From Candidatus Gottesmanbacteria bacterium RBG_16_52_11 (lineage in GTDB: Bacteria > Patescibacteriota > Microgenomatia > UBA10105 > UBA927): a DNA stretch of 41,904 bases. The stretch spans positions 70,558 to 112,461 of the forward strand of contig MFJD01000001.1 of assembly GCA_001779095.1 (NCBI GenBank). Reading direction: 5' to 3'. How positions within the stretch are numbered: position 1 is the stretch's first letter; every line of letters begins with the position of its first letter. This document shows, piece by piece, positions 34,339-37,975 of this stretch. The notes beneath the pieces were generated by a model, which was given only the letters and a program-made list of their open reading frames with translations, did no database searches and had not been told where the DNA came from. The translations under genes were made by a program, and so were the position numbers.

Positions 34339-35079
34339 ATGACAATGAAAATATTTAACGACATTCCAGAGGATGTTAAGGATAAGGTCGATAAGTGGCT
34401 TGGAAATATCAGTGGTCTCGACTCGTTGATAAAAATTAACGATGTAGTTAGAGCACTTCAAACTGAAAGCGATCTTATAGGTGGTGAAACATTTCATATT
34501 CCCCTGAAGAGGCTTGCCAATTTAAGAGTGGAGGATCGTGAAGCAATATTCCAAAAACTAATGGCAATAGGAATCCTCATTGCTGGTACAGATCAAGTGA
34601 ATGTTGATGATAAACCAAGCCTTGCGAATGAAGAAACCTCCTGGGTGGCAGTTCACACCGATAGACTTGCTTATGTACTTAACCAATTACAGGAAAAAAT
34701 AAACATTTTGGGATCGGAGGAAACTAATAACACATCCTCTCAAATACCTCAGGTAATAAAATTGCCCTATGGTTGGAGACTGGAGGAGAAGATGGGAATG
34801 GCTGAGTTGCTTAATAATAACGAAATACGATACACCTTTAAAATGCTTGCCAGAAAACCGTATAAATACTTTCTTCATTTCTGCATAAATTACGGAAAGG
34901 AAATTGGCTATCCAGATCTTGTGAGGCTGGATTCATCGGTTACCGAACACGCCAATCACCTAACTCATAAAAATGTTCGCAGTGTGAGAAGCTATCTAAA
35001 CAAACTTTTCAAGAAAAGTAAGATTCCATTCGAGATTTTATTAACTAACGAACGCTTCTCCCTAACGATTCACCGCTAA
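34339..35079 (+). CDS. uncharacterised element protein, 246 aa, possible C-terminal wHTH
   Basis: A 246-residue soluble protein. The N-terminal region (MTMKIFNDIPEDVKDKVDKWLGN...) is helical with charged residues. The C-terminal part NVRSVRSYLNKLFKKSKIPFEILLTNERFSLTI (about 213-244) has the shape of a winged helix tail and could bind DNA. There is no signal peptide or membrane segment and no nuclease or ATPase motif. It is the first gene of the rightward mobile-element operon, divergent to the HTH gene. Similar proteins might be replication or transfer regulators, but I cannot assign one. Confidence 0.55.
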   Translation: MTMKIFNDIPEDVKDKVDKWLGNISGLDSLIKINDVVRALQTESDLIGGETFHIPLKRLANLRVEDREAIFQKLMAIGILIAGTDQVNVDDKPSLANEETSWVAVHTDRLAYVLNQLQEKINILGSEETNNTSSQIPQVIKLPYGWRLEEKMGMAELLNNNEIRYTFKMLARKPYKYFLHFCINYGKEIGYPDLVRLDSSVTEHANHLTHKNVRSVRSYLNKLFKKSKIPFEILLTNERFSLTIHR

Positions 35080-35082
35080 CTA

Positions 35083-35116
35083 TCCCCGTTTTGGTCTATT
35101 TCTCCCCGTTTTGGTC
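35083..35116. repeat. tandem 14-base direct repeat TCCCCGTTTTGGTC
   Basis: TCCCCGTTTTGGTC occurs at 35083-35096 and 35103-35116, exactly 20 bases apart (about two helical turns). It stays similar over 18 bases with one mismatch. A partial third copy (TGTTGGTC) follows near 35124. Confidence 0.8.
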
Positions 35117-35137: not shown

Positions 35138-35179
35138 CGTCATATTCTCAAGTTACAAACGAGAATTATGAATATGACG
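35138..35179. promoter_or_regulatory. 10-bp inverted repeat overlapping the DUF5659 start codon
   Basis: CGTCATATTC (35138-35147) is repeated inverted at 35170-35179; the right arm covers codons 1-4 of the DUF5659 gene (ATG at 35168). A second stem ATTCTC (35144-35149) / GAGAAT (35161-35166) is nested and competes with it. This could control translation or be a repressor site. Confidence 0.65.
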
Positions 35180-35428
35180 ATAAATAAACAAATCAGCAAC
35201 AAGACCTATACCTCTACCGATCTTTCACTGGTTGGGTACATATCGCTTTTTTCTCCAATTCTTTCAGTAGATAAAACAAATCCTAAAAAGGTCTCTTTTT
35301 CCTTCAGTAAAGATAGTGAGGTTGAGAAACTTCTGGATCTTTTTTGGTCAGGACAAGCACGAGTAGAGCCGAACGACTATTTTAACCAGCTCAAACAAAT
35401 CAAGAGCAGAATTTACAGCCAAAAATAA
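35168..35428 (+). CDS. DUF5659-like protein, 86 aa
   Basis: An 86-residue protein with YTSTDLSLVGYISLFSPIL, a central VSFSFSKDSEVEKLLDLFWSGQARVEP and closing YFNQLKQIKSRIYS. This agrees with the DUF5659 pattern (TsDLyLaayL, F.F, then ydf-like and Lk.iK..iy), a family found in CPR mobile or accessory regions. Function unknown. An inverted repeat covers the start codon, and its stop is followed 1 base later by the next gene's ATG. Confidence 0.7.
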   Translation: MNMTINKQISNKTYTSTDLSLVGYISLFSPILSVDKTNPKKVSFSFSKDSEVEKLLDLFWSGQARVEPNDYFNQLKQIKSRIYSQK

Positions 35429-35429
35429 T

Positions 35430-35609
35430 ATGGTAAATCAGCAATTACTTAACGAGCTTAAGCAGATCATTAAAGAAGATTTCAAGACAGATTTAACACC
35501 AGAAATCCTTTCAGAGGTTGGTAATTCGCTGGTTCGTTTTTTCGAGTTGTTAATCAAGATTGATAATCAGTCACAAAATACTTTAAAGAAGAAACCAAAA
35601 CTAATATGA
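35430..35609 (+). CDS. small element protein, 59 aa
   Basis: A 59-residue helical protein: MVNQQLLNELKQIIKEDFKTDLT, then PEILSEVGNSLVRFFELLIKI and a basic tail KKKPKLI. Probably cytoplasmic. Its ATG follows the DUF5659 stop by a single base; its stop TGA overlaps the following ATG (ATGA). These couplings, and the clean frame, favour a real gene. No family recognised. Confidence 0.65.
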   Translation: MVNQQLLNELKQIIKEDFKTDLTPEILSEVGNSLVRFFELLIKIDNQSQNTLKKKPKLI

Positions 35610-35710
35610 CAAACAGTTATTACTGTCACACAGTCAACAGTATTAACAGTAATAAATATTTAATAGCCTACTGTTTAACAGTAGAACAGTTAACAGTTAC
35701 ACCATTATGA
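35606..35710 (+). CDS. 34-codon reading frame made of AACAGT repeats, coupled at both ends
   Basis: The frame begins in an ATGA overlap with the 59-aa gene and ends in an ATGA overlap with the 86-aa gene. The peptide is MTNSYYCHTVNSINSNKYLI, then AYCLTVEQLTVTPL. Nearly all of the DNA consists of AACAGT repeats, so the peptide composition may simply follow the DNA. It might be a coupling leader that carries ribosomes from one gene to the next, or just an accident. See the repeat entry. Confidence 0.4.
   Translation: MTNSYYCHTVNSINSNKYLIAYCLTVEQLTVTPL
35612..35697. repeat. cluster of AACAGT repeats (iteron-like)
   Basis: Exact AACAGT starts at 35612, 35636, 35645, 35677, 35685 and 35692; the inverse ACTGTT lies at 35670-35675, and partial copies (ACTGT 35622, ACAGT 35630) fill the gap. 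Two palindromes result: ACAGTTATTACTGT (35613-35626) and ACTGTTTAACAGT (35670-35682). Together about 86 bases. Confidence 0.8.
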
Positions 35711-35967
35711 GGAATAATTTAAAAGAAAAAGATCCTATCGAATTGCACAGCATAGCTAACGAGATCGCTGAGTTACTCGATGATGTTAAAAGCATAAGGT
35801 ATTACGAAATTTTGATTAATGAAAATGACCCCGATGAATTACTTGAAACCGCCCGTTATGTAGCTGGTGTTGACAAAGAGGGAGGGATAAGAACGAACAA
35901 GGCCATATATTTTCAGGGTGTATTACGAAGAACTGGATATAAAACTAAATTCAGAAAGACATATTAA
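35707..35967 (+). CDS. uncharacterised element protein, 86 aa
   Basis: An 86-residue acidic-to-basic protein: MRNNLKEKDPIELHSIANEIAELLDDVKSIRYYEILINENDPDELLETARYVAGVDKEGGIRTNKAIYFQGVLRRTGYKTKFRKTY, i.e. a helical acidic first half and a basic C-terminus which could contact DNA. It begins in an ATGA overlap with the repeat-based frame and precedes the recombinase by 46 bases, so it may be a recombination directionality factor or a replication helper. This is only a suggestion from position and size. No family recognised. Confidence 0.55.
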   Translation: MRNNLKEKDPIELHSIANEIAELLDDVKSIRYYEILINENDPDELLETARYVAGVDKEGGIRTNKAIYFQGVLRRTGYKTKFRKTY

Positions 35968-35971
35968 GTTA

Positions 35972-35996
35972 ATAATAGTTGACAATAGTTTATAAT
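35972..35996 (+). promoter_or_regulatory. recombinase promoter region with shared ATAATAGTTGA motif
   Basis: ATAATAGTTGA (35972-35982) precedes TATAAT (35991-35996). A TTGACA at 35979-35984 is too close to TATAAT to be its -35; the -10 may instead be further right in the TATATA run. The shared motif links this promoter to the HTH gene. Confidence 0.45.
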
Positions 35997-36013
35997 ATAT
36001 ATAAATTAAAATT

Positions 36014-37618
36014 ATGAAAGCAATCATTTTCTGCAGAGTATCAAGTAAAGAACAGGAAGAAACGGGTTATTCTCTACCCGCACAAGAGAAATACCTCAGA
36101 GAATACGCGGAAAGAAACAACTTCACTGTTGAAAAAGCATTTGCCGTATCAGAGTCAGCCAGTGGAAGTGTGCAAAGAAAAGTCTTCAATGAGATGGTTA
36201 ACTATATTCGAAAAGTCAACATTCCGATTGTCATAGTTGAAACCACGGATCGCCTTACAAGAAATTTCGCTGATGTACCGACAATAGATAAGTGGATACT
36301 TGAAAATGAGAGTTATCAAATTCATCTGGCAAAAGAGGCGTGTGTACTCCATAAAAACTCCAGATCACACGAGTGGTTTATGTGGAGAGTTAAAGTTGCA
36401 ACCGCTGAGTATTACGTCAGACTGCTTTCTGAAAATGTTAAAAAGGGTCAGAAAGAAAAGATAGCTCAGGGTTGGCTTCCCACTAAACCACCATTGGGGT
36501 ATCTGACGATCGGTGAGAAAGGTCATAAAACTCACATTCTCGACCAAGATAAATCTCCCTTAATGAAAAAGGTGTTTGAGCTTTATGCTACGGGTGATTA
36601 CTCACTCAAACGACTGTCTAATGCTATTTACGATCAAGGGTTAAGAACAGATAGCGGAAGGCGGGTTGTAAAAAGCCGAATTCACAGACTTCTGACAGAC
36701 CCTTTTTACATCGGGAAAATAAAGTGGAATGATGAGATACACCCAGGTAATCAAGAATCACTCATTTCAGAAGAAGTGTTTTATAAAGTTCAATCACTTC
36801 TGAAAAGTAAAACCACACCCAAATACAACAAGCACAACTATCAATTTAAGGGGTTAATCCGCTGTAAAGAGTGTGCGGGTACAATTACCTGGGAAATCCA
36901 TAAAAGCATCGTCTACGGGCATTGTAATCACTACAGAAACTGTTCTCAGCGGGCGTGGATTACTCAGGATGTGGTTGAATCCCAGGTTGTGGGTGAATTT
37001 GAGAAACTTGAGATCAAAAATACCAGAATAGTTGACTGGATCAGGAAAGCTCTTAAGGAAAGTCATAAAGACCAAATAGCTTATTACTCCTCCGTGATAG
37101 GTGAACTTAACCAGAAACAGGATCTTTACAAAAACCGACTTGACAGACTCTATGATGATAAATTGGATGGCAACATTTCAGAAGATACATTCCTTAGAAA
37201 GTCGAAAGACTGGAATGATGAACTTGAAAAAATAACTCTAACCATCAAAAAACATAACCAAGCAAGTGGAAAATACTTCCAATTAGGTATAAATCTCTAT
37301 GAGCTGTCACAGAGAGCAAAAGAGATATACCTAAAAGCAAAGGACGAAACTGACAAACGAGCTTTAATTAACCTCGTCTTTTCAAAACTTACCCTGGATG
37401 AAGGGGTGCTTGAGGTTAAACACTCAAAAACCTTTAATTTGCTGGCTGAAGCTGTTTCCTTAACCAATGGTTCGAAAATACAAAAACCTGCAACATTAGA
37501 TGATAGAATTTTCGAACCTTCAAAAAAGCCCGATATTACAACAAAAAAGGACGCTTTGTCTCCTCAGCGTCCTATCTGGCTCCCCCGGGAGGACTCGAAC
37601 CTCCAACCTGCCGATTAA
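36014..37618 (+). CDS. large serine recombinase, C-terminus read through a tRNA gene
   Basis: A 534-residue site-specific recombinase. The N-terminal resolvase domain has FCRVSSKEQEETGYS with likely catalytic Ser10, the conserved TDRLTRN segment, and long recombinase and zinc-ribbon regions (IRCKEC near 284, CNHYRNC near 305), followed by a coiled-coil part (about 345-425). Large serine recombinases insert elements at short sequence cores and need a directionality factor for excision. The last residues WLPREDSNLQPAD are encoded in the antisense strand of tRNA-Asn; this is the known signature of a frame running into a tRNA gene. The native C-terminus was probably replaced upon insertion. ATG 36014 with an AT-rich promoter. 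Confidence 0.95.
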   Translation: MKAIIFCRVSSKEQEETGYSLPAQEKYLREYAERNNFTVEKAFAVSESASGSVQRKVFNEMVNYIRKVNIPIVIVETTDRLTRNFADVPTIDKWILENESYQIHLAKEACVLHKNSRSHEWFMWRVKVATAEYYVRLLSENVKKGQKEKIAQGWLPTKPPLGYLTIGEKGHKTHILDQDKSPLMKKVFELYATGDYSLKRLSNAIYDQGLRTDSGRRVVKSRIHRLLTDPFYIGKIKWNDEIHPGNQESLISEEVFYKVQSLLKSKTTPKYNKHNYQFKGLIRCKECAGTITWEIHKSIVYGHCNHYRNCSQRAWITQDVVESQVVGEFEKLEIKNTRIVDWIRKALKESHKDQIAYYSSVIGELNQKQDLYKNRLDRLYDDKLDGNISEDTFLRKSKDWNDELEKITLTIKKHNQASGKYFQLGINLYELSQRAKEIYLKAKDETDKRALINLVFSKLTLDEGVLEVKHSKTFNLLAEAVSLTNGSKIQKPATLDDRIFEPSKKPDITTKKDALSPQRPIWLPREDSNLQPAD

Positions 37619-37651
37619 CAGTCGGACGCTCTACCATTGAGCTACAGGGGA
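37580..37651 (-). tRNA. tRNA-Asn (anticodon GTT)
   Basis: On the minus strand the gene folds as a cloverleaf: 7-bp acceptor stem TCCCCTG / CGGGGGA with one G-U, D arm GCTC / GAGC, anticodon arm with loop CTGTTAA (anticodon GTT), variable loop, and T arm GGAGG / CCTCC with TTCGAGT. Discriminator G. The first pair of the anticodon stem (T-C) is a mismatch. The 3' end is shared with the recombinase end; the 5' half (with upstream flank) is duplicated at 37907-37975. Confidence 0.93.
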
Positions 37652-37655
37652 ATGT
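37626..37655. repeat. direct repeat copy A (tRNA-Asn 5' half plus 4 flanking bases)
   Basis: These 30 bases, from ACGCTCTACC to CAGGGGAATGT, recur at 37907-37975, where they are split by a 37-base insertion. This may be an attachment-site repeat. Confidence 0.75.
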
Positions 37656-37906: not shown

Positions 37907-37975
37907 ACGCTCTACCCGCCTCGCCCTGACGAGCTATGGCGAGTCGGGGCGGGCCATTGAGCTACAGGGGAATGT
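37907..37975. repeat. direct repeat copy B (tRNA-Asn 5' half), interrupted
   Basis: ACGCTCTACC (37907-37916) and the rest of the 30-base repeat (CCATTGAGC to GAATGT, 37954-37975) flank a 37-base palindromic insertion. CC is present on both sides, so it looks like a 2-base target duplication. Confidence 0.7.
37917..37953. mobile_element. 37-base palindromic REP/MITE-like insertion
   Basis: The insertion begins CGCCTCGCCCTGACGAG and ends GGCGAGTCGGGGCGGG. It folds with CCCGCC/GGCGGG (first base from the flank) and TCGCC/GGCGA, leaving a bulge on one side. GC content far above the surroundings. No transposase here. Confidence 0.55.

Follow-up and report, generated by a model that had tools for sequence, protein, structure and literature searches.

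A short array of AACAGT repeats in the coding DNA of an integrative element of Patescibacteria is real and conserved at the DNA level; the fusions of the protein domain encoded behind it and its gene context are observed as well. The array most likely consists of protein-binding iterons and serves as a replication origin or as an initiation or copy-control site of the element, a reading to which we assign a probability of about 55%. It lies in a stretch of 41,904 nucleotides (the window) from a 1.47-Mb Patescibacteria assembly, in which the G+C content drops from about 42–50% to 33–40% across about 30–38 kb, where the operon and the integrase gene sit. To our knowledge, little is known about the replication of mobile elements in Patescibacteria. 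The finding offers one specific candidate for an origin, whose motif is defined in 12 loci, together with an initiator domain that can be tested, and it connects this domain with a small, uncharacterised protein encoded on Patescibacteria chromosomes. The features of the region are:

34339 to 35079, + strand: 246-aa protein of no family; the related element L015 has a homologue in the corresponding place
35083 to 35116, + strand: two exact TCCCCGTTTTGGTC direct repeats with a 20-bp period, between the 246-aa gene and the operon
35168 to 35428, + strand: DUF5659 protein (PF18903, E 6e-8), a neighbour in most of these elements
35430 to 35609, + strand: 59-aa ORF, a small helical protein conserved in these elements as the immediate upstream neighbour of either the array gene or a replication gene
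35606 to 35710, + strand: 34-codon micro-ORF, corresponding to the array-bearing 5' part of the relatives' array/CTD gene
35612 to 35697, no strand assigned: repeat (iteron-like) array with six AACAGT, one ACTGTT and extra ACAGT/ACTGT copies
35613 to 35626: best-formed array site ACAGT-TATT-ACTGT, an inverted pair
35630 to 35641: best-formed array site ACAGTCAACAGT
35670 to 35682: best-formed array site ACTGTTTAACAGT, the inverted pair ACTGTT-T-AACAGT
35686 to 35697: best-formed array site ACAGTTAACAGT
35707 to 35967, + strand: 86-aa protein, a four-helix domain (CTD) that stands alone behind the arrays of 11 relatives
36014 to 37618, + strand: large serine recombinase (integrase), with Patescibacteria relatives of up to 75% identity

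The array spans 86 nt, with exact AACAGT copies starting at 35612, 35636, 35645, 35677, 35685 and 35692, a single ACTGTT at 35670 and partial copies at 35630 (ACAGT) and 35622 (ACTGT). An earlier note on this DNA had described six exact copies plus inverse and partial ones over about 86 bases, which was confirmed; two inverted pairs are present (35613–35626 and 35670–35682). Its statement that the micro-ORF is written entirely in AACAGT repeats was too strong, as they make up about 52 of the 105 nt, which is about half. AACAGT or ACTGTT occurs seven times in 99 nt; when the array was shuffled 3000 times with dinucleotides preserved, the count averaged 0.51 and reached 4 at most, and in shuffles of the region 35168–36013 it never exceeded 3. 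The 12-mer motif ACWGTTAACWGT, which has a GTTAAC core, matches three times in the whole window when one mismatch is allowed; two of the matches lie in the array, and three were reached in none of 100 shuffles. DnaA boxes showed no excess over chance in the window, which counts against an origin. The TCCCCGTTTTGGTC repeats are probably an operator or promoter site and not part of the AACAGT array. A hairpin (CUACUGU-UUA-ACAGUAG) is predicted in the mRNA at the repeats and would fit a function as RNA, with hairpins controlling translation of the 86-aa gene. Such a role is very unlikely, as the folding energy of the repeats is ordinary for their composition (z -1.2, not significant) and relatives such as L079, where the spacing is 30 bp, have mainly direct repeats.

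With the 86-aa protein as query, followed by small alignments, 11 independent relatives with 18–45% identity were identified in other Patescibacteria genera among the class and phylum genomes (L042, L043, L045, L046, L047, L048, L050, L051, L079, L080 and L081). In all 11, a repeat array occupies the corresponding place, within a continuous ORF upstream of the domain, which runs from a short N-terminal peptide through an array-encoded linker to the 86-aa-type domain. A short M-x-x-I-x-x-I-L peptide opens most relatives and chromosomal homologues and is absent in the window and L042. The GTTAAC-core motif ACWGTTAACWGT is common to eight loci including the window. L079 has three near-identical sites of this type, and in L045, L046 and L080 the site spacing is a multiple of 15 bp. 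AACGTT-type repeats are found instead in L043, L050 and L051, and TAACGA repeats in L081. The eight ACWGTTAACWGT loci cluster in the domain tree (76% of bootstrap trees); as the motif sits on the same piece of DNA as the domain, the clustering shows co-inheritance and not binding. A class-wide scan with the DNA pattern gave seven matches, four of which were unrelated coding or intergenic stretches, and in viral contigs the pattern matched at least 120 times with none of the loci fetched encoding the protein. Doublets of GTTAACAGT at L231:1501–1523 and L232:1501–1530 are mainly intergenic and unrelated to this gene family; they are apparently chance or small dispersed repeats.

The earlier note had left two explanations side by side, an iteron-like array kept open so that ribosomes can pass, or a peptide that itself matters, and had suggested a comparison of related elements to distinguish them. 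In this comparison, repeats are kept, codons drift and the frame of the sites changes, as would be seen for a DNA site. Sites occur in two reading frames within L042, within L048 and within the micro-ORF; in the third frame, GTTAAC would be read with its TAA as a codon. Within the repeats, codon usage is biased: asparagine in V/D-N-S is encoded by AAC in 17 of 19 cases versus 44 of 110 elsewhere (p 8e-5), and serine by AGT in 16 of 18 versus 23 of 70 (p 2e-5). Repeated 8-mers exceeded those in synonymous-codon shuffles at P<0.02 in six of the 11 relatives (L042, L046, L048, L079, L051 and L081; P 0.0005–0.0135), whereas L043 and L045 were marginal and L047, L050 and L080 not significant, which counts against the proposed reading. 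None of six chromosomal homologues showed such an excess. The codon bias inside the repeats and the sites in two frames show that selection acts on the DNA and not on the peptide. The iteron-like array kept open for ribosomes is thereby supported, with relatives that keep repeats in differing linker sequences. The 34-aa peptide as a functional product, such as a regulatory leader or a small toxin whose repetitive sequence the repeats would mirror, is highly improbable. It could draw on the 34-codon open frame and the ATGA coupling at both ends, but the peptide is not conserved, relatives fuse different linkers to the domain, and both the two frames and the codon bias speak against it. In addition, frames that stay open this long are not unusual by themselves at this composition (P = 0.065), and the array-encoded linker is predicted to be disordered (pLDDT 43–47), with the domain predicted to be folded (pLDDT >90).

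The frame from 35606 to 35710 contains no stops, in line with the uninterrupted 34 codons reported before, though openness alone has the P of 0.065 given above; the other two frames carry 6 and 3 stops. Both of the ATGA overlaps that had been reported with the neighbouring genes are real: the 59-aa ORF ends on the ATG of the micro-ORF at 35606, and the end of the micro-ORF forms the ATG of the 86-aa ORF at 35707. The proposal that the micro-ORF is a coupler between two genes was not supported, as 11 relatives have in this stretch the N-terminal linker of a single gene that also includes the downstream domain; in two of them the start codon of this gene overlaps the preceding stop by 4 nt. The array gene in L070 starts with ATATGAC and overlaps the preceding gene by 4 nt, the one in L235 has a TTG start with the same overlap, and the micro-ORF starts with ATATGAC and a 4-nt overlap like L070. 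In the relatives, translation runs on from the array into the domain as one ORF. In the window, the frame of the domain is blocked upstream by a TAA at 35653 and restarts at 35707. From start context, overlap and the continuous ORF of the relatives, the most fitting view of the micro-ORF is that of an array/CTD gene's 5' part, which lies out of frame with the 3' part. The frame split in the window may be due to a mutation or, less likely, to an assembly error. A programmed -1 frameshift was rejected, as inspection of the overlap zone revealed no classical slippery heptamer.

The CTD of which the 86-aa protein consists also forms the C-terminal part of the RepA_N protein L049/L071 (PF06970, E 7.8e-22), which has a ParA-like ORF upstream and a linker carrying two ACTTCTAGAAGT-type palindromic 12-mers, and it also ends the RPA initiator L054 (PF10134, E 1.4e-9). 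These fusions identify the 86-aa-type domain as one that replication initiators carry at their C-terminal end. RepA_N was found in one of 348 genomes of the class, and that single protein carries the CTD. The domain is found in Patescibacteria genomes and is host-lineage-restricted; tblastn with L047 did not find it in phage or plasmid collections, and protein searches of IMG/VR, phages and plasmids yielded nothing. No match above the cut-off was obtained in Pfam for the 86-, 59- or 246-aa protein, and the CTD had no meaningful family match in Pfam, NCBIfam or PDB. The model of the CTD is confident and shows four helices, with no significant Foldseek match that would speak for a DnaD/DnaB-like primosome domain by similarity to DnaD or the RepA CTD, and viral fold matches to replication proteins had E values of 0.7 or worse. 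Against an origin count the lack of a significant sequence or fold match of the CTD to known replication proteins, the lack of an HTH or other N-terminal DNA-binding domain in the 86-aa protein, and the lack of PF06970 (RepA_N) in the genome of the window.

The CTD also occurs as a small chromosomal protein of Patescibacteria (L055–L064, L086 and L097–L099), and at several chromosomal loci the preceding ORF resembles, by eye, the end of peptidyl-tRNA hydrolase. A second element was observed in the window's own genome (L063/L074; contig C8, 6357–9238, reversed), in the order DUF5659, HTH-like ORF, CTD as a separate overlapping ORF and serine recombinase. The split into an HTH-like ORF and a CTD ORF was seen only in L074–L076.

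Nearly all of the best relatives of the integrase are from Patescibacteria, mostly from Microgenomates lineages, and the order DUF5659, 59-aa-like protein, a variable gene and integrase recurs among them. The variable gene is a Prim-Pol protein in L005 (E 2.4e-28), a DnaG zinc-ribbon protein in L038 (E 3.8e-20), followed there by an ATPase-like protein, and an HTH_36 protein in L039 and L041. As sister elements carry primase or initiator genes at this position, array and domain occupy the slot of a replication module. Instead of an origin, the array could be an operator through which the operon or the adjacent integrase is autoregulated, or a partition or incompatibility site; a repressor bound to repeats at the 5' end of the gene would block transcription into the domain and integrase genes. 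A dimeric repressor could well bind inverted 12-mers, most loci have the integrase shortly after the array, and several elements have XRE or MerR regulators. This is possible, yet doubtful, as the array loci share a motif but no regulator type present in all, the fusion partners of the domain are replication initiators and not repressors, and sister elements fill the slot with primase and initiator genes.

A comparison anchored on the integrase (37 loci) did not reveal the array, and integrase and array module are separable. Seven second ORFs were checked as linker-like (L008, L009, L010, L012, L016, L032 and L039), and repeats were clear only in L009 and L010 and marginal in L012 and L032. 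In L009:5234–6004 and L010:2309–3004, repeated 9-mers exceeded synonymous shuffles (P 0.002 each); these ORFs lie between the replication-slot gene, HTH-like in L009, and the integrase, whose start they overlap, and they perhaps represent the same trick of an origin within an ORF in sister elements.

In the window, L068, L073 and L235 the array directly precedes a large serine integrase, which could also suggest an accessory recombination site (attP arm or excision-factor sites), with the 86-aa protein as recombination directionality factor. However, in L067 and, judging from its ORF, L236 the array gene adjoins a tyrosine recombinase; it is thus not tied to one integrase type, even if serine recombinases prevail. 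No comparable ACAGT/ACTGT cluster was present 1.5 kb upstream in 36 loci with related integrases, and the domain occurs in plasmid initiators, so that a recombination site is quite unlikely. The integrase ORF ends inside an opposite-strand tRNA-Asn gene (37577–37651), and 22 nt from the 5' part of the tRNA recur at a distance of 320 bp downstream (37634–37655 and 37954–37975), with a sequence between the copies that resembles, by eye, a GIY-YIG endonuclease remnant. No long att repeats were detected besides this tRNA fragment copy.

The array sits in the coding sequence of a small initiator-like gene. If it is an origin, the element would first be excised by its recombinase. A DNA-binding protein would then bind the GTTAAC-core sites, which might be the gene's own product, another protein of the element or a host protein. 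Near the array of L067 only an XRE-like ORF lies upstream, and neither DUF5659 nor a 59-aa ORF is found. Both proteins are therefore disfavoured as binder, and the protein encoded by the array gene itself, or one of the host, becomes the likelier candidate. The C-terminal domain would recruit host replication proteins, as the CTD of pSK41 Rep does with DnaG. In the window, ribosomes probably reinitiate at the ATGA at 35707 to produce the domain, with the DNA sites kept, and the DNA-binding half of the initiator may be supplied in trans or replaced. More tentatively, the element might be a new type of minimal replicon of Patescibacteria, in which the initiator has lost its DNA-binding half and a protein consisting only of the CTD is combined with an origin inside its own gene; the GTTAAC-core palindromes would then be read by the CTD itself or by a conserved host DNA-binding protein. 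Should this apply, the chromosomal CTD protein would become a candidate for a factor that acts in the primosome or in helicase loading across the phylum.

Several known systems share parts of this arrangement. Iteron plasmids of the Rep_3 type also combine a small replication gene with a nearby array of short repeats. Their array lies upstream of rep and not inside coding DNA as here, and no Rep_3 initiator domain was found in ten neighbouring proteins. PLE satellites of Vibrio are likewise integrated elements with a large serine recombinase, and their initiator acts at semi-palindromic repeats (PMC7145576), but the PLE iterons are non-coding and PLE has a full RepA_N initiator. In phage lambda, the iterons of the origin lie within the initiator gene O (PMC3349717), an arrangement comparable to the array, whereas here no O-type N-terminal domain and no helicase-loader gene P were seen, and the iterons of ori lambda measure 18 bp versus the 12-bp GTTAAC-core sites. 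In RepA_N replicons of the pSK41 type, the Rep boxes are located inside rep and encode a dispensable linker, and the genus-specific CTD binds DnaG (PMC5703833). Repeats in the rep coding sequence that encode a linker, followed by a lineage-specific C-terminal domain, are common to both systems, and the relative L049/L071 is a true RepA_N protein with the same CTD. Repeats precede the C-terminal part in the ORFs of the 11 relatives and, in the window, in the micro-ORF ahead of it, and the CTD is host-lineage-restricted here as well. Unlike in RepA_N replicons, the repeat-binding N-terminal domain is missing in the window gene and its 11 relatives (PF06970 is present only in L049), and in the window linker and domain are even in different frames. 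Some plasmids and phages thus already provide examples of an origin within the initiator gene; here the half of the protein that normally binds DNA is missing, and the layout of an origin in a gene would survive the loss of this half of the initiator.
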